Source: Shouchella oshimensis (GTDB lineage: Bacteria > Bacillota > Bacilli > Bacillales > Bacillaceae_D). From it: DNA of 64,000 nucleotides. Under the pieces are notes generated by a model. That model searched no databases. It worked only from the letters and a program-made list of their open reading frames with translations, and was not told the origin of the DNA. The position numbers and the translations under genes are program-made. Shown piece by piece: positions 45,235-56,809 of the stretch (position 1 is the first letter of the stretch; the number at the start of each line of letters is the position of its first letter). The stretch spans positions 203,849-267,848 of the forward strand of contig NZ_KV917380.1 of the NCBI RefSeq assembly GCF_002019765.1, given 5' to 3'.

Positions 45235-45317
45235 GATTAATCCTCTTTTCTGTACAGTAGCTAGATTTAGTATAGCATAAGAACTAATGAAGGATCATGT
45301 AAGAGAGGAGCATGTGT

Positions 45318-45998
45318 TTGCAGTATGTCCAGGTTAAACAGTTATCAGTAAATGAACGGATTATTTATAGAAAGAGACGGATTTTAGATAACATTAGCTT
45401 TTCCATTCGCCATGGTGAGGCGATTGGACTCTTTGTAGAAAATCGGCAAGAAAGAGAATGGCTGATGGATCTTTTATTAGGAATGAAAAAACCTAATCGT
45501 GGTGAAGTTATAATCGGTCAGCATACGATCACAAATGTAAATGAAGAAGAAGCAGCTCGTATACGCAGAGAGGAAGTTGCCTTTGTATCAAGTCGAACAC
45601 TATTAATGACAGAAGCAACGGTTGAAGCGAATTTACAGGTGAATAAGTGGCTAAATAAAAAGGCTTATGCAAATAAAGCGCATTTAAGACAATTACTTAT
45701 CTACTTTGAGGCTGAATCTCTTTGTCATAAATACGTGAAAGACCTTGACTCTCGTGAAAAGGAACTTGTACGACTTATTCGTGCTCTTTGGATGAGCCCT
45801 TATCTAATCCTAATGGAAGAGCCAGAAGATGCTCGTACGCTAAAAAAACTTATTCAGTATACGTGGTCAATGCAAATTACATTTCTATTTACAACTTCTC
45901 AACTAAAAAAAGCAGAGCTGGCTCACGGCATGTTGTCTATAAAGGGCGGAGTATTAGAGGATCATTCGCGCCTAGAACGAGGAAGGGTGCAAGAGTAG
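45318..45998 (+). CDS. ABC transporter pseudo-ATPase (all catalytic motifs degenerate)
   Basis: 226-residue protein with the length and fold pattern of a MacB/LolD-type ATPase but no working active site. Where Walker A should be (residues 39-48) it has FVENRQEREW, without GxxGxGKS/T. The Q-loop Gln is Ser (VSSR, 90-93), the signature LSGGQ is LDSRE (143-147), Walker B keeps hydrophobics but ends LILMEEP (163-169), and the H-loop His is missing (FTTSQ, 191-195). The frame has no internal stop. TTG 45318 is 7 nt after GAGGAG; ATG 45312 is too close. A large permease begins 3 nt after its stop. It may be a structural or regulatory subunit, or need another ATPase. Confidence 0.8.
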   Translation: MQYVQVKQLSVNERIIYRKRRILDNISFSIRHGEAIGLFVENRQEREWLMDLLLGMKKPNRGEVIIGQHTITNVNEEEAARIRREEVAFVSSRTLLMTEATVEANLQVNKWLNKKAYANKAHLRQLLIYFEAESLCHKYVKDLDSREKELVRLIRALWMSPYLILMEEPEDARTLKKLIQYTWSMQITFLFTTSQLKKAELAHGMLSIKGGVLEDHSRLERGRVQE

Positions 45999-46000
45999 GA

Positions 46001-48019
46001 ATGAAGATGATTTATTTTTTAATGGGCAATCGCACAGCTTTTCAGACAAAGAAAGGATTTCGGTTGTTTTTAGTTTACATACTATTGCTTATAGCGTTAC
46101 TTACGTCGTTGTTTTTTAGTTTGCAAGTTGCCATTCATGCAAATAAGGTTAACCAGCTATCAAGTGATGGAGGGAACTTAGGCCTTTATTCAATTCAGTC
46201 TAAAGTCGATTTAAGTAAGTCAGAAATTGACCGATTCATGGATTTAGATTCCGTTTACCAACCATATGTGAAAAGTAAGCCAGAAGCGTATACATATGAG
46301 GGAGCAACGGTAATCGTCCAAAGGAATAGTGAACCTTATTTTCATGAAAATGGGACGACTCTTCTGATTGGAGAGTGGCCACAGAATGAACATGAATGGG
46401 TTATTAATAGCTATCAATTTTATGCGATCGATGACGATTTTTCACTTGGTGACCAACTTACATTTGAGTCTAGCACAGGCGATCGAAAGGATATTACGAT
46501 TACAGGTGTATATGAAGAGCTGCAAGCTTATCAAGCATCTTATTCAGCGCTAACCGTTGGAGAGGTAGAGGAAGGCTATATTGCTGGATTAGTAGAAATG
46601 GATTCGGTTTCAACTGTTTCTTCTGATTTGAAGGAGACTTTTGACATCACCATACAACGCCAACCGGTTTATCAAAATCCACCTGTTGAGAAGCTTTCGG
46701 AGGGTAGTACCATCATCGTGTTTTATAGTCTACTCCTCTTATTGAATATGATCATCCTAGCATGGCTAGCCGTGCAACTTCTGTCATTGTTTGATTTTCG
46801 TGCTGGATTGTCAACGGCCACGTACTATGGCTTGTCGCCGAAGAAAACAACATTTGCTTGTATCGTATTGTTTAGTATCGTTGCCATGCTTTTAGTCAGC
46901 ATCAGTTATTTTATAGCTTATATCGCCTTCCAGTATGTTGGCGAGAGATGGAGCCACGTAATAGGTGTTTCAATCTTCTATCGTCAAGACCATGTAAATA
47001 ATCAAATGCATATACCTATTGATTACACCTATATGATCATTGCCAGTATCCTTCTTAAAATATGGTTCATTCTTGTTTTCTTTGCAAGTAAACAAATGAA
47101 TAGAACAACAACCCTCATTGTTTCAAGTTTAGTTGGGCTTATTTGTTTAGCTTTAACGATGCCTTTCATTCAATCTGTAGTGGACTATAACCAATTTCAC
47201 AGAGAGAATGAAGTCGGTGATGATATTTATGATTATTATTTAGAAAAACAACCGTATACAAGCGCTCATTTATTAGATAAAAGAGCCATCGATCAGTTTG
47301 ATGATTTAACAAATGCATTGGATCGTGACGGTGTTTCCGCTCTTCATTTAAGGGGGCTTCAAGATTGGTTTGTAAATGGACTAGAAGATGAACAAGATCT
47401 GTTTTTCGCATCGCAAGTTTTAGCCGTTGATGACGATGAATGGTTAACCTTTTTAAAGCAATTAGGCATGGAGGAATTAGCCTCCTCACAACAAGCTGGT
47501 GCACCTCCCATTATTCATTTTCCATGGAAAGAGTCAGCAGATTTTAGTTACCGGGAGCCCGTTTATCTCGAAGGAATGGAAGTAGCACTCCAGCAAATAA
47601 ACTATAAAAATGATGGCAGCTTTGAGTTTGTAACAGATGACGAAACGCTAACATTTCGTGCCTATAGTGTAGAACAAGAGCATTTTTTTACCTATGAAAC
47701 GTTTATACTGCCTCAATCTTATGTTGGTGAAACAAAGGTAGACGAGCAATTGTTCATGCCAGTCTATTTAATCCCGACTGACTTATCCATTAACGAATTT
47801 GAATACGAATTGTTCACGAACTATTTAAACGAGTATCCGTTGCTTAGGTTTATTGAAAATGGGCATCACGCCACATGGTTTGTTGAAACAGAGCGAACAA
47901 GCTTTAGGTTGCTGATGATACAGGTTGTCCCGATTGTACTTGTACTAACAATGATTCTGTTTTCGTTAGGCGCACCTTTGCTTAAGAAAATAAAAGCGAA
48001 AAAACAATGGAGTTCTTAA
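46001..48019 (+). CDS. Large membrane protein, permease partner of the pseudo-ATPase
   Basis: 672 residues. Membrane segments at about 20-43, 233-260, 285-310, 345-363, 370-392 and 638-661; two big extracytoplasmic regions (about 44-230 and 395-635) lie between them. The layout (helix, large external domain, cluster of helices, second external domain, last helix) recalls MacB/FtsX-type permeases but the sequence match is weak and I do not recognise a named family. ATG 46001 is preferred; the frame runs upstream into the ATPase gene without a start signal. A terminator follows. Function unknown; the partner cannot hydrolyse ATP by the usual mechanism. Confidence 0.75.
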   Translation: MKMIYFLMGNRTAFQTKKGFRLFLVYILLLIALLTSLFFSLQVAIHANKVNQLSSDGGNLGLYSIQSKVDLSKSEIDRFMDLDSVYQPYVKSKPEAYTYEGATVIVQRNSEPYFHENGTTLLIGEWPQNEHEWVINSYQFYAIDDDFSLGDQLTFESSTGDRKDITITGVYEELQAYQASYSALTVGEVEEGYIAGLVEMDSVSTVSSDLKETFDITIQRQPVYQNPPVEKLSEGSTIIVFYSLLLLLNMIILAWLAVQLLSLFDFRAGLSTATYYGLSPKKTTFACIVLFSIVAMLLVSISYFIAYIAFQYVGERWSHVIGVSIFYRQDHVNNQMHIPIDYTYMIIASILLKIWFILVFFASKQMNRTTTLIVSSLVGLICLALTMPFIQSVVDYNQFHRENEVGDDIYDYYLEKQPYTSAHLLDKRAIDQFDDLTNALDRDGVSALHLRGLQDWFVNGLEDEQDLFFASQVLAVDDDEWLTFLKQLGMEELASSQQAGAPPIIHFPWKESADFSYREPVYLEGMEVALQQINYKNDGSFEFVTDDETLTFRAYSVEQEHFFTYETFILPQSYVGETKVDEQLFMPVYLIPTDLSINEFEYELFTNYLNEYPLLRFIENGHHATWFVETERTSFRLLMIQVVPIVLVLTMILFSLGAPLLKKIKAKKQWSS

Positions 48020-49171: not shown

Positions 49172-50035
49172 TTACGATAAATAATAGATGCCGGTTCGTT
49201 TTTCTGAAAGCGACCATAAAGACCCCGCTTGGTGTTTATTAAAAATAGTATCCCCAGTTGTTTGAGGTTTAGGTTTTCCGTACCATTCCCTATAGCCACT
49301 AGGCCCAATCCATTCTCCACCGTTAAGCATGGCATTTGTGGCAGCATAACATGTCGATGCAGCGCCTTGTTCAGCTGATTGAACAAGATAGGGTAAAATG
49401 CTGCGAATCAACCAATGGGCTTTCTTGCCTGAGCCTTTGGAGAGCAAGTTTGAATAAGCTAGCCCAGGGTGGCAAGCGACACTAATAGTGGATTTTTGAT
49501 GTACTTTTAAACGTCGATCCAGCTCTCGAGCAAATAAAAAGTTGGCAAGCTTACTCTGTCGGTAAAAGGTCATTGGATTGTAACCGTAGTCTCCATTGTA
49601 ATTAGCAAACTGAATCGTTCCTTTAATGGCAGCGATACTTGTGATCGTCACAATACGGGATGAAGGAGTAGAAGTTAAGAGTGGCAAAAGGTACCCGGTC
49701 AATGCGAAGTGACCAAGATGATTCGTACCAAACTGTCTTTCAAAACCGTCTACTGTAAGCTCATATGGTGGATTCATAACCCCTGCATTATTGATAAGTA
49801 AATCCAATCTTGAAAATGGTACGCTTTCTGAAAAGGCTTGAATGGAAGAAAGGTTCCCTAAATCGAGGAAAGAAAAAGAGACAGCTCCATAAGAGCGGAG
49901 AAGTCTAACGGTGGCTTCCCCTTTTTCTTTATTTCGACTGGCAATGATTACCCGATAGTTGCTCGCTAGTAAAAACTTGGCTGTTTCAAAGCCAATTCCG
50001 CTTGTTGCACCGGTAATAAGCGCTGTATGCTTCAT
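49172..50035 (-). CDS. Short-chain dehydrogenase, retinol-dehydrogenase-like
   Basis: 287-residue SDR. TGATSGIGFETAKFLL binds NAD(P), with Arg in IIASRNKEK suggesting NADP; LLINNAGVM, the catalytic Ser in TITSIAA, and Tyr/Lys in YRQSKLANF are all present. It resembles the human-RDH/WWOX-like group that reduces lipophilic carbonyls, but the substrate is unknown. ATG 50035 (MKHT) follows AAGGAG at 8 nt; the frame extends to 50056 without a site. It precedes ribD by 13 nt and is probably cotranscribed. Confidence 0.9.
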   Translation of the reverse strand: MKHTALITGATSGIGFETAKFLLASNYRVIIASRNKEKGEATVRLLRSYGAVSFSFLDLGNLSSIQAFSESVPFSRLDLLINNAGVMNPPYELTVDGFERQFGTNHLGHFALTGYLLPLLTSTPSSRIVTITSIAAIKGTIQFANYNGDYGYNPMTFYRQSKLANFLFARELDRRLKVHQKSTISVACHPGLAYSNLLSKGSGKKAHWLIRSILPYLVQSAEQGAASTCYAATNAMLNGGEWIGPSGYREWYGKPKPQTTGDTIFNKHQAGSLWSLSEKRTGIYYLS

Positions 50036-50171
50036 ATCATTTGCTCCTTTAAGCAATCACTGTCTCCATACTACACTAATCTTATGAGGGTTTGCCAAAA
50101 AGAAGGTTGCTAAAGACGTTAGGGGCCATTGGAGGAGGTAGCCGTGTATAGTGCTTTGGCGTGTTAAAAAC

Positions 50172-50202
50172 AAAAAAAGCGAGCAGCGATAAGGATCACT
50201 GC
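50172..50202 (-). terminator. Terminator of the 21-residue peptide gene array
   Basis: On the minus strand: 8-bp stem GCAGTGAT/ATCGCTGC (50202-50195 and 50190-50183, one G-T pair), 4-nt loop, TCGC, then T7. It lies 14 nt after the last peptide gene and before the SDR gene, so it closes the array as a separate transcription unit. Confidence 0.85.
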
Positions 50203-50215
50203 CCGTTCATATTGG

Positions 50216-50281
50216 TTACCCAAGAGTTCCCACGATGCTAGAAACCGATTCAAAAAGTTGTGTAAGTACGTCTGTGAGCAT
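50216..50281 (-). CDS. 21-residue amphipathic peptide, array copy 7 (divergent)
   Basis: Last copy of the array. Peptide reads MLTDVLTQLF then ESVSSIVGTLG. It differs from the other copies at five positions (F2L, I5V, V7T, A9L, I17V), all keeping the hydrophobic or polar class except V7T, while the TD, FESVSSI and GTLG blocks are fixed. CTGGAGGTGGATCAA precedes the ATG. DNA has drifted more than in the other copies, so it is the oldest or most divergent unit, yet the frame and amphipathic pattern are kept. No family is assigned. Confidence 0.85.
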   Translation of the reverse strand: MLTDVLTQLFESVSSIVGTLG

Positions 50282-50318
50282 TTGATCCACCTCCAGTTTG
50301 AAAATAAGGAAAAAAGAA

Positions 50319-50384
50319 TTAGCCAAGAGTGCCGATAATGCTAGAAACTGATTCAAAAGCTTGTACGAGAATATCTGTAAACAT
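50319..50384 (-). CDS. 21-residue amphipathic peptide, array copy 6
   Basis: ATG to TAA in 66 nt. Encodes MFTDILVQAF followed by ESVSSIIGTLG, identical to copies 1-5. Ribosome site CTGGAGGTGGA, 8 nt before the ATG. Start-to-start distance to copy 5 is 104 nt. Uses CTC for Leu6 and GTA for Val7, as copy 1 does. Confidence 0.88.
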   Translation of the reverse strand: MFTDILVQAFESVSSIIGTLG

Positions 50385-50422
50385 AAGGTCCACCTCCAGT
50401 TTGAAAATAAGGAAAAAGAAAA

Positions 50423-50488
50423 TTAACCAAGAGTACCGATAATGCTAGAAACTGATTCAAAAGCTTGAACAAGAATATCTGTAAACAT
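50423..50488 (-). CDS. 21-residue amphipathic peptide, array copy 5
   Basis: Same peptide as copy 6 with synonymous changes (GGT for Gly18 and Gly21). Ribosome site CTGGAGGTGGA is identical. Start-to-start distance to copy 4 is 104 nt. The third-position changes without amino acid change argue that the peptide is selected. Confidence 0.88.
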   Translation of the reverse strand: MFTDILVQAFESVSSIIGTLG

Positions 50489-50526
50489 AAGATCCACCTC
50501 CAGTTTGAAAATAAGGAAAAAGAGAA

Positions 50527-50592
50527 TTACCCAAGAGTGCCGATAATGCTAGAAACTGATTCAAAAGCTTGAACGAGAATATCTGTAAACAT
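50527..50592 (-). CDS. 21-residue amphipathic peptide, array copy 4
   Basis: Same peptide; Leu6 is CTC and Gly21 is GGG. Strong ribosome site as in the other copies. Spacer between this stop and the next start carries the conserved TTTTCCTTATTTTC tract. Confidence 0.88.
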   Translation of the reverse strand: MFTDILVQAFESVSSIIGTLG

Positions 50593-50630
50593 AAGATCCA
50601 CCTCCAGTTTGAAAATAAGGAAAAAGAGAA

Positions 50631-50696
50631 TTACCCAAGAGTGCCGATAATGCTAGAAACTGATTCAAAAGCTTGAACAAGAATATCTGTAAACAT
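50631..50696 (-). CDS. 21-residue amphipathic peptide, array copy 3
   Basis: Same peptide; Leu6 is CTT, Gly21 is GGG. Strong ribosome site; 104 nt from copies 2 and 4. Confidence 0.88.
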   Translation of the reverse strand: MFTDILVQAFESVSSIIGTLG

Positions 50697-50734
50697 AAGG
50701 TCCACCTCCAGTTTGAAAATAAGGAAAAAGAGAA

Positions 50735-50800
50735 TTAGCCAAGAGTGCCGATAATGCTAGAAACTGATTCAAAAGCTTGAACAAGAATATCTGTAAACAT
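50735..50800 (-). CDS. 21-residue amphipathic peptide, array copy 2
   Basis: Same peptide; Gly21 is GGC. Ribosome site CTGGAGGTGGATTTT before the ATG. Start lies 103 nt after the copy 1 start. Confidence 0.88.
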   Translation of the reverse strand: MFTDILVQAFESVSSIIGTLG

Positions 50801-50837
50801 AAAATCCACCTCCAGTTTGAAAATAAGAAAAAAAGAA

Positions 50838-50903
50838 TTAGCCAAGAGTGCCGATAATGCTAGAAACTGATTCAAAAGCTTGTACGAGAATATCTGTAAA
50901 CAT
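50838..50903 (-). CDS. 21-residue amphipathic peptide, array copy 1 (first transcribed)
   Basis: First gene of the array. Encodes MFTDILVQAF followed by ESVSSIIGTLG. Hydrophobic residues at 2, 5, 6, 9, 10, 13, 16, 17 and 20 give one face of a helix; Thr3, Asp4, Gln8, Glu11, Ser12, Ser14, Ser15 and Thr19 give the other. There is no Lys or Arg (net about -2) and no signal peptide. Its ribosome site AAAAGGAGG, 7 nt before the ATG, differs from the CTGGAGGTGGA of the other six, showing that it carries the operon's own leader. Leaderless toxin, biofilm surfactant or signal peptide are the main options. Confidence 0.88.
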   Translation of the reverse strand: MFTDILVQAFESVSSIIGTLG

Positions 50904-51011
50904 GACAGAACCTCCTTTTAAAAAGCTTTATTGTTTTTACTTACCTAGCTAACGCAGGAGAGATCACATTGGATCACTTTTTTTTATAATTTTTTTAAAA
51001 AATGGTTTAAA
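50904..51011 (-). promoter_or_regulatory. Probable control region of the peptide array
   Basis: On the minus strand: an AT-rich promoter-like stretch with TATAAA (50988-50983) and a poor -35 (TTTAAA, 51011-51006), followed by a direct repeat GTGATC-N4-GTGATC (50977-50972 and 50967-50962), 10 bp apart, so both copies are on one helix face. The weak -35 and repeat suggest an activator or repressor site. An untranslated leader of about 70 nt follows. Confidence 0.4.
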
Positions 51012-51085: not shown

Positions 51086-51769
51086 ATGAAAGTAGAGATT
51101 TGGTCGGATATTGCATGTCCGTTTTGTTATATTGGGAAGAGGAAGTTTGAACAGGCTCTAGACGAATTTGATCAACCTGTTGACGTGACGTTTAAAAGTT
51201 TTCAGCTTGACCCGAATGCACCACACCACTCAACAGAGTCCATGGTTACGGTTCTTGCGAAAAAATACAATATTCCTGTTGAAAAGGCAAAGGAAATGAA
51301 TAGTCAAGTTACTGCTCAGGCGAAAGAAGTAGGTTTAAACTATGATCTAGAGAGTATCCGAGTTGTGAATACAATGGATGCTCATCGCTTAAGTCATTTG
51401 GCGAAAGAAAAAGGGAAAATGGGAGAAGTAATGGAGGCGCTATTAGACGCGCATTTTGTTCAGGGACGCTATGTTGGTGACCGAGAGGAGTTAATCAACA
51501 TTGGGGCAAAGGCTGGTCTATCGAAAGAAGAGGTTAACGCCGTACTAGACAGCGATCAATATAAGGACGTTGTCATGCAAGATCAGGCAGAAGGAAGCCA
51601 AATTGGCGTTCAAGGCGTTCCATTCTTTGTTTTTAATCGAAAATATGCTGTTTCAGGCGCTCAGCCAAAAGAGGCATTTCTTCAAGTATTAGAAAAAGTA
51701 AAAGAAGAAGATCAACCTCAGATTCAAGTCGTGAATCAAGGCGATACCTGCACAGATGAAAGTTGTTAA
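51086..51769 (+). CDS. DsbA-family oxidoreductase, FrnE-like
   Basis: 227-residue thioredoxin-fold protein with the active-site CPFC in SDIACPFCYIGKRKFE (residues about 7-22) and the cis-Pro in GVQGVPFFVF. No signal peptide, so it is cytoplasmic, like FrnE and B. subtilis YwbO. A C-terminal DTCTDESC adds two Cys, recalling the second, C-terminal Cys motif of Deinococcus FrnE. GGGG lies upstream of the ATG. A GTTGCA-N13-GGGTAT stretch (51031-51055) could be a sigma-B promoter. Confidence 0.9.
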   Translation: MKVEIWSDIACPFCYIGKRKFEQALDEFDQPVDVTFKSFQLDPNAPHHSTESMVTVLAKKYNIPVEKAKEMNSQVTAQAKEVGLNYDLESIRVVNTMDAHRLSHLAKEKGKMGEVMEALLDAHFVQGRYVGDREELINIGAKAGLSKEEVNAVLDSDQYKDVVMQDQAEGSQIGVQGVPFFVFNRKYAVSGAQPKEAFLQVLEKVKEEDQPQIQVVNQGDTCTDESC

Positions 51770-55823: not shown

Positions 55824-56809
55824 ACAATTGCTGCCTCCTCTTTGCTGAAAAGCCAACAACGGACATGCTGACCTGCTTCTGCGGAAAACAGTGGTGGTGC
55901 TTCTGTGATACAACGTTCCATTGCATGAGGGCAGCGAGGAGAAAAGCGACATCCAGTTGGCATTGATTCAGGGGTGGGAACTGTTCCTTCTATCGACGTT
56001 AATGTTTCTTCTAGCTCGTTAATTTTTGGTGTGCTAGCAAGTAGTCCCTGTGTATATGGATGTGCTGGTTTCTCAAACAATGTAAATACGTCTGCTTCTT
56101 CAACGACTTGCCCTGCGTACATAACGATGACAGTATCTGCCATTTCTGCTACAACGCCAAGATCGTGAGTAATGAGCATAATCGCTGTATCGTTTTCTTG
56201 AACTAAATCACGCATTAACCCTAAGATTTGTGCTTGGATGGTCACATCTAAAGCTGTAGTAGGTTCGTCAGCAATGAGTAATTTAGGGCTACAAGCAAGT
56301 GCGATAGCAATCATAACACGCTGTCTCATACCGCCACTTAAGGAATGTGGGAAGGAACGGTAGACCTTTTCAGCTCGCGGAATTCCGACTTTTTTAAGCA
56401 TATCAATGCCTTTTTCTTTCGCTTGCTCTTTTGATACGTTTTGGTGCAGTAAGATTACTTCTGCTAACTGATTTCCGATTGTAAATAAAGGATTTAAAGA
56501 GGTGAGTGGCTCTTGAAAAATCATCGATAAGTCATTGCCTCTTAATTTACGATACTGTTTATCGCTAATGCCAATCAAATCTTGACCATTAAACCTAACG
56601 GAACCGCCGACAATTTTTCCTGGGGAGGACACAAGTCCCATTATTGATAAGGAAGTCACGCTTTTACCACAACCCGATTCGCCTACGATTGCAACTGTTT
56701 CCCCGTGTTTAATTGAAAAAGATACACCATTCACAGACGGAACAGCACCATTCTCTGTAAAGAAATGTGTTTGCAGGTTTTCTACTGACAAAAGAACGTC
56801 TTCGCTCAT
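55820..56809 (-). CDS. oppD: Oligopeptide ABC transporter ATP-binding protein D
   Basis: 329-residue ATPase with Walker [11 protein letters not shown]-loop [12 protein letters not shown], signature LSGGMRQR, Walker [13 protein letters not shown] and H-loop LITHDLGVV. The C-terminal region [15 protein letters not shown] carries the conserved Cys cluster. It pairs with OppF as the heterodimeric motor. ATG 56809 has AAGGAGAAGG upstream; the longer frame to 56857 overlaps oppC and has no signal. Confidence 0.94.

Follow-up and report, generated by a model that had tools for sequence, protein, structure and literature searches.

Phenol-soluble modulin genes occur several side by side. SpoVM of Bacillus is likewise a very short, leaderless, amphipathic membrane-binding peptide, encoded by a single-copy gene under sporulation control. 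In the part of PMC5442197 consulted, alpha-type phenol-soluble modulins are described as leaderless peptides of ∼20 to 25 residues whose primary product carries formyl-Met; the helix of phenol-soluble modulins is amphipathic over virtually the whole peptide, and dedicated ABC exporters secrete them. On the regulatory side, the gene for mycobacterial SigK is, according to the portion of PMC7509140 consulted, cotranscribed with an anti-sigma gene, and SigK controls the antigen genes mpt70 and mpt83.

The locus of Shouchella oshimensis analyzed here encodes a peptide that appears to be like phenol-soluble modulins in design and not in sequence. As in the staphylococcal alpha-type peptides, the products are short (21 residues), leaderless, and predicted to form an amphipathic helix along their full length. 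Unlike them, the 21-mers contain no Lys or Arg, lie behind an ECF-type promoter with six identical copies in a row, and belong to a Bacillaceae host. Twelve members of the peptide family gave no match in NCBIfam at an E value of ≤10 and no significant match in Pfam, where the single hit, to PSMbeta, had an E value of 0.11 (12.7 bits versus a cutoff of 25). The 21-mers share with SpoVM their very short length, the absence of a leader, and amphipathicity, while SpoVM is not multicopy, is controlled by sporulation, and has a different sequence. For its part, the presumed regulator resembles SigK/RskA in that an ECF sigma factor gene stands beside a gene for an anti-sigma factor with an RskA_C domain. 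It differs from that pair in the zf-HC2 N terminus of the Bacillales anti-sigma factor, in the promoter (TGATCC-N16-CGTTA), and in its putative targets, here a two-repeat surface protein, a CHRD protein, and the 21-mers.

The window, that is, the whole 64,000-nt stretch of S. oshimensis DNA that was analyzed, contains seven ATG-to-TAA frames of 66 nt on the minus strand between 50216 and 50903. They start at 50903, 50800, 50696, 50592, 50488, 50384, and 50281, with a spacing of 103 to 104 nt, and the seventh terminates at 50216. These coordinates, together with Tandem Repeats Finder (50216 to 50903, period 104, score 1138), bore out the seven regularly spaced frames of the initial annotation. 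Gene 1 (50838 to 50903) encodes MFTDILVQAFESVSSIIGTLG behind the ribosome site AAAAGGAGG. Genes 2 (50735 to 50800), 3 (50631 to 50696), 4 (50527 to 50592), 5 (50423 to 50488), and 6 (50319 to 50384) encode the same peptide with synonymous differences only, and gene 7 (50216 to 50281) encodes the variant MLTDVLTQLFESVSSIVGTLG, which differs from MFTDILVQAFESVSSIIGTLG at five positions; these six genes all carry the ribosome site CTGGAGGTGGA. Both the ribosome sites and the set of six identical peptides plus a seventh with five changes were as first annotated. Upstream of gene 1, also on the minus strand, lies the ECF-type promoter GTGATCC-N16-CGTTA (50950 to 50977), the single TGATC(C/T)-N16-CGT site in the window, with an A/T tract directly upstream (towards 51010). 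At the operon end, the intrinsic terminator previously placed at 50172 to 50202 proved to be real, with a minus-strand stem at 50180 to 50205 (−16.5 kcal/mol, z −4.4). All seven peptide matches in the 4.06-Mb genome belonged to the array, and no further copies were found there. The sole other tandem array in the window (55982 to 56027, score 55) has a 21-nt unit in 2.2 copies and is flanked by oligopeptide ABC transporter genes.

The pattern of substitutions indicates, from sequence comparison, that the frames are genes under selection for the peptide. Among the six main copies, 33 synonymous and 0 nonsynonymous differences were counted over the 15 pairs, a pattern that homogenization of the array may partly explain. 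Across genomes, same-type genes of Shouchella or of the Bacillus pumilus group showed pS values of 0.30 to 0.68 and pN values of 0.00 to 0.04 in the six pairs computed. Thus, gene 1 of S. oshimensis gave a pS of 0.53 against both G004 and S. xiaoxiensis (pN, 0.02 and 0.00, respectively), and its variant gene gave 0.37 and 0.49 (pN, 0.02 and 0.04) against the same two genomes. The peptide gene of G065 gave 0.68 against G394 and 0.30 against B. altitudinis, with a pN of 0.00 in both cases. Linkers and coding parts were 0.73 versus 0.89 identical to those of G004, 0.58 versus 0.91 to those of S. xiaoxiensis, and 0.40 versus 0.85 to those of Alkalicoccobacillus, shuffled linkers averaging 0.56. 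Chance open frames were considered and rejected. A single long repeat protein was also rejected, since each unit carries its own stop and its own ribosome site. Overall, the 66-nt frames are very probably real genes under ECF control.

Homologous peptide genes, in 1 to 8 copies, were found in Shouchella, Alkalicoccobacillus, the B. pumilus group, and Priestia, the DNA having diverged while the peptide was conserved. Profile searches detected the peptide in 6 of 13 Shouchella genomes (E < 1e-8); inspection of a weakly matching locus in G009 (E = 0.001) showed no such array. In an order sample of 397 genomes, 84 matched at E values up to 0.5, and 13 were counted as carriers, namely, 12 with an E of <0.001 plus G357 (E = 0.016), accepted after inspection. 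One locus among the 71 uncounted matches (L068) was inspected and showed no array. Within Bacillus, the genus of G065, the peptide was present in 14 of 44 genomes. A class-wide search of 299 genomes returned S. oshimensis, G065, and 14 weak matches (E = 0.0005 to 0.05), adding no counted member; in 9 of these 14 the best match falls inside a frame of at least 100 residues.

A scan of genome contigs that yielded 12 stretches supplied the species names: Shouchella miscanthi (7 copies), S. xiaoxiensis (6 and 2 copies on two contigs), Alkalicoccobacillus murimartini (6 copies), Bacillus safensis, B. australimaris, B. xiamenensis, B. zhangzhouensis, B. altitudinis, and Bacillus sp. 28A-2 (1 to 3 copies), and Priestia aryabhattai (2 copies). 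Genomes G184, G209, G257, G298, and G357 were taken as Priestia because of the peptides they share and their genus label. The ML-type variant is the last gene in S. oshimensis and in the four other multicopy Shouchella arrays, and the single copy of G005 is of the MF type. In Priestia an MF-type gene is followed by an ML-type gene, and the pumilus group has MF-type genes only. Searches of the open-licence literature with five of the peptides (without Met) and with the string VSSIIGTLG returned no match.

The 21-mers are hydrophobic and amphipathic, with a net charge of −2 or −1; they have no signal peptide and no Lys, Arg, or Cys, and their weakly anionic polar face is rich in Ser, Thr, Asn, and Gly. 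Calculated [M+H]+ values, without and with the formyl group, are 2228.15/2256.15 and 2210.16/2238.16 for Shouchella, 2314.16/2342.16 for the pumilus group, and 2313.16/2341.16 and 2327.18/2355.17 for Priestia. At 100 degrees, the hydrophobic moment exceeded that of composition-matched shuffles on two scales, both for the main peptide (p = 0.0010 to 0.0014) and for the variant (p ≤ 0.0001), and all six family members tested were more amphipathic than their shuffles as predicted helices. The amphipathic helix of the initial annotation is in agreement with these predictions, and its list of hydrophobic positions had omitted V7, which is likewise hydrophobic. Synonymous-only variation, conservation across four genera, copy number amplification, and the hydrophobic moment together back the earlier reading of a leaderless peptide made at high dosage. 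Plasmid searches with the peptide gave no match, PDB sequence searches gave nothing useful, and a PHROGs search gave one weak match of no use.

By promoter sharing, the array appears to belong to the regulon of an ECF-type sigma/anti-sigma pair. TGATC(C/T)-N16-CGT(T/A) precedes the first gene in 23 of 24 loci, its end lying 31 to 46 nt ahead of the first ATG; only G706 departs from this, with an altered promoter spacing and an early stop in the peptide gene. On the second contig of S. xiaoxiensis the promoter stands before each of the two peptide genes. G005, outside these 24, has an anti-sigma gene and one TTG-start copy, and no such promoter was found in the ∼250 nt upstream. The exact GTGATCC-N16-CGTTA element occurs at two sites in the S. 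oshimensis genome (reversed control, 0), one at the array and the other before a surface-protein gene. The latter encodes a 450-residue two-repeat product with a signal-like start and, by eye, an MPQTG tail, and a sortase gene comes next. A one-difference element (CGTTT) precedes the ECF sigma/anti-sigma operon of S. oshimensis, and similar sites were present in G004 and G012. Pfam identified sigma-70 regions 2 and 4 adjoining the RskA_C/zf-HC2 anti-sigma gene in S. oshimensis, and likewise beside an RskA_C anti-sigma gene in G277 (pumilus group) and G209 (Priestia). A further copy of the element, in S. xiaoxiensis, lies ahead of a gene for a CHRD-domain protein with the same tail motif (L107, from about 4575). 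In the four pumilus-group genomes searched for the exact promoter, it was found at the array and, apart from that, just once, in G277, where no A/T tract accompanies it; the sigma operon of this group has its own promoter variant where read. A one-mismatch search of S. oshimensis yielded 16 sites, versus 17 for the reversed control; such sites, being no commoner than the control, were counted only with an A/T tract and a conserved gene. A promoter site of G012 in L117, common to S. oshimensis, failed the A/T filter and was dropped.

The motif was also sought at the 30 best anti-sigma loci. At a spacing of 16 nt it gave 20 matches in 14 loci, versus 0 to 4 at every other spacing between 8 and 25 nt, and permuted motifs matched a mean of 0.74 loci (highest, 11 of 30). 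With the three Shouchella loci removed, 15 matches remained in 11 of 27 loci. The 13 counted carriers include none of these 11 genomes, so the motif accompanies the sigma family independently of the peptide. The anti-sigma family itself was matched in 159 of the 397 order genomes, only 10 of them among the 13 counted carriers. The literature consulted on the sigma factor and promoter motif in these groups, including the part of PMC3171730 covered, contained nothing relevant. The ECF-type promoter and the regulon, both missed by the initial annotation, shift the odds toward a surface or membrane function induced by stress and away from a weapon made constitutively.

Several other features were seen at these loci. 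In S. oshimensis, the region G000:C1:2989646-2995343 (locus L104) holds the genes for the ECF sigma factor, the RskA-like anti-sigma factor, the two-repeat MPQTG-tailed protein, and the sortase. The two-repeat protein had no Pfam match, and similar two-repeat proteins are encoded at many of the anti-sigma loci fetched from the order; a PDB sequence search with it returned nothing significant. In G004 its gene looks interrupted, as adjacent frames of 316 and 122 residues (L105, 5138 to 6480). A palindromic 28-mer, GTGATACTCCCCACAGAGGGGAGCGTTA, was found at G000:C1:2668108, at four sites in G012, and at one in G004, one of the sites being a variant.

Comparison among genomes further indicates that the peptide is lost or decays with the sigma factor. 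In the 44 Bacillus genomes, the peptide was present (1 to 3 copies) in all nine with a full anti-sigma gene, the sigma gene itself being seen in three of the nine (G277, G317, and G692); five genomes had the peptide only and 30 had neither. This association gave a Fisher p of 3e-6, in a test that was chosen after seeing the data and ignores kinship. The sigma orthologue matched at 96 to 97% in G692 and G317 of the pumilus group and at 53 to 57% in four Priestia genomes, and it was absent from seven carriers, whose best match was 27 to 32%. Five sigma-less Bacillus carriers (G065, G394, G694, G703, and G706; sigma match, ≤31%) have one peptide gene each. In G694 the gene has lost its stop, and in G706 it has a stop at codon 3. 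In G065, G394, and G703, gene and promoter are intact, so these genomes may have lost the sigma factor only recently, or a different sigma factor may act at the promoter; G065 has kept the sigma promoter and a 25-residue anti-sigma tail around the deletion. The sigma orthologue is missing and the anti-sigma gene broken in the Priestia genomes G298 and G357, which keep two peptide genes each, with the changes G21E in G298 and D4G and N18S in G357. G184, G209, and G257 all encode the same peptides, and in G681, where the anti-sigma gene is full, one peptide copy carries I16M. Altered or broken peptide genes were thus found in 4 of 7 sigma-less carriers versus 0 of 12 bearing the sigma or anti-sigma gene (p = 0.009), or versus 1 of 12 when I16M is counted (p = 0.038), in a grouping made after seeing the data and ignoring kinship. 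Broken or changed peptides in relatives, which the initial annotation had named beforehand as a sign against its reading, were therefore found only in a few genomes, mostly sigma-less. The pumilus-group and Priestia genomes that lack the sigma factor constitute a natural experiment.

The nearest neighbors of the array are a DSBA-like gene on the plus strand (51086 to 51769) and a short-chain dehydrogenase gene on the minus strand (49172 to 50056). About 2.2 kb beyond the array, at 45312 to 48019, lie two overlapping genes, one for an ABC ATPase (PF00005) and one for a 743-residue protein that has six hydrophobic segments and matched nothing in Pfam. This pair is also near the array in the Shouchella genomes G012 (85 to 91% identity) and, diverged, in G004 (31 to 42%), and the S. 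xiaoxiensis contig has a 34% ATPase match some 8 kb from its array. No TGATC(C/T)-N16-CGT promoter was found at the pair. The pair and the dehydrogenase, DSBA-like, and diacylglycerol-kinase-like genes were all missing from the fetched surroundings of the G213, G277, G209, and G065 arrays; in G277 a 586-residue frame about 2.8 kb from the array looks, by eye, like an ABC exporter. The ABC pair is a candidate exporter in Shouchella and nothing beyond that. Two convergent genes beside the Alkalicoccobacillus array (L250, 10078 to 10981) look like thiol-disulfide genes, one of them DsbB-like by eye; the neighbor in S. oshimensis is the DSBA-like gene, and the 21-mer has no Cys.

We propose that an ECF sigma factor, kept in check by an RskA-like anti-sigma factor, controls the array as one of its operons. 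Envelope perturbation would release the sigma factor, which would then transcribe its own operon, the surface-protein gene, and the array, and the seven strong ribosome sites on each transcript would give a burst of leaderless 21-mer. The initiator Met is retained when residue 2 is bulky, and since this is the case here, the 21-mer would keep it. On contact with a membrane the peptide is predicted to fold into an anionic amphipathic helix, and it would then bind the lipid bilayer en masse in a surface-active manner. This is the simplest function in which dosage, amphipathicity, and envelope control all have a part. Lys or Arg is present in most helices with cytolytic or antimicrobial action; the 21-mer has neither, which counts against a membrane mechanism. 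On balance, we give even chances to the proposal that an envelope-stress sigma factor drives a high dose of a leaderless anionic amphipathic peptide with a membrane mechanism. As for the place of action, we mildly favor a peptide that is exported, as phenol-soluble modulins are, and acts at the surface of the cell's own envelope over one that acts at the cytoplasmic face, a slight tilt given by the surface-protein look of the coregulated proteins.

The peptide might instead stay inside, coating the inner face of the cytoplasmic membrane and filling lipid-packing defects under envelope stress. The ALPS motif is an amphipathic membrane-binding helix with a polar face of Ser, Thr, Gly, and Asn, and the weakly anionic polar face of the 21-mer, rich in the same residues, is ALPS-like. 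The lack of a signal peptide and a promoter-defined regulon without an exporter point the same way, whereas the other sigma targets seen, the two-repeat and CHRD proteins, look secreted; we consider this alternative rather unlikely. It is improbable that the peptide is a weapon against competitors, whether a leaderless bacteriocin or a cytolysin. Such a weapon would also be leaderless, amphipathic, and made at high dosage, and the ABC gene pair ∼2.2 kb away, near the array in two relatives as well, could export it. However, no immunity gene was recognized in the neighborhoods read, none of the S. oshimensis neighbors tested recurs at the G213, G277, G209, and G065 arrays, Lys and Arg are missing, the promoter is common to surface proteins, and the peptide is very conserved for an arms-race weapon.

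A role in feedback, in which the peptide tunes the sigma factor by binding to the RskA-like anti-sigma factor or to the membrane around it, is also doubtful, and we judge it about as improbable as the bacteriocin. In the four pumilus-group genomes the exact promoter is almost confined to the array and the sigma operon has its own variant, as such tuning might have it, but multicopy amplification suggests a stoichiometric rather than a regulatory dosage, and most genomes with the anti-sigma gene have no counted peptide. The regular repeats could also suggest a conserved RNA or leader-peptide device in which the peptide is incidental. This was rejected as very improbable: differences are synonymous, linkers diverge around fixed peptides, the window gave no match in Rfam, and the S. 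oshimensis neighbor genes are not near the arrays of the other genera tested.

Massed membrane binding under envelope-stress control thus remains the preferred reading. Taken further, it would describe a phenol-soluble-modulin-like system outside the staphylococci, in which the ECF envelope-stress output of four Bacillaceae genera is a massed, leaderless, anionic helical surfactant peptide, amplified by tandem duplication to an extent that varies by species, with MF- and ML-type forms perhaps in a mixed assembly; this wider picture is put forward tentatively, as something less than probable. The family of 21-residue genes is linked to an ECF sigma factor for which we found no effector described in these groups, and this link gives the peptide a switch usable at the bench. 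If sigma control is true, the array would represent an undescribed small-peptide stress response, a hint that peptides of this leaderless, surface-active kind may not be confined to staphylococci.
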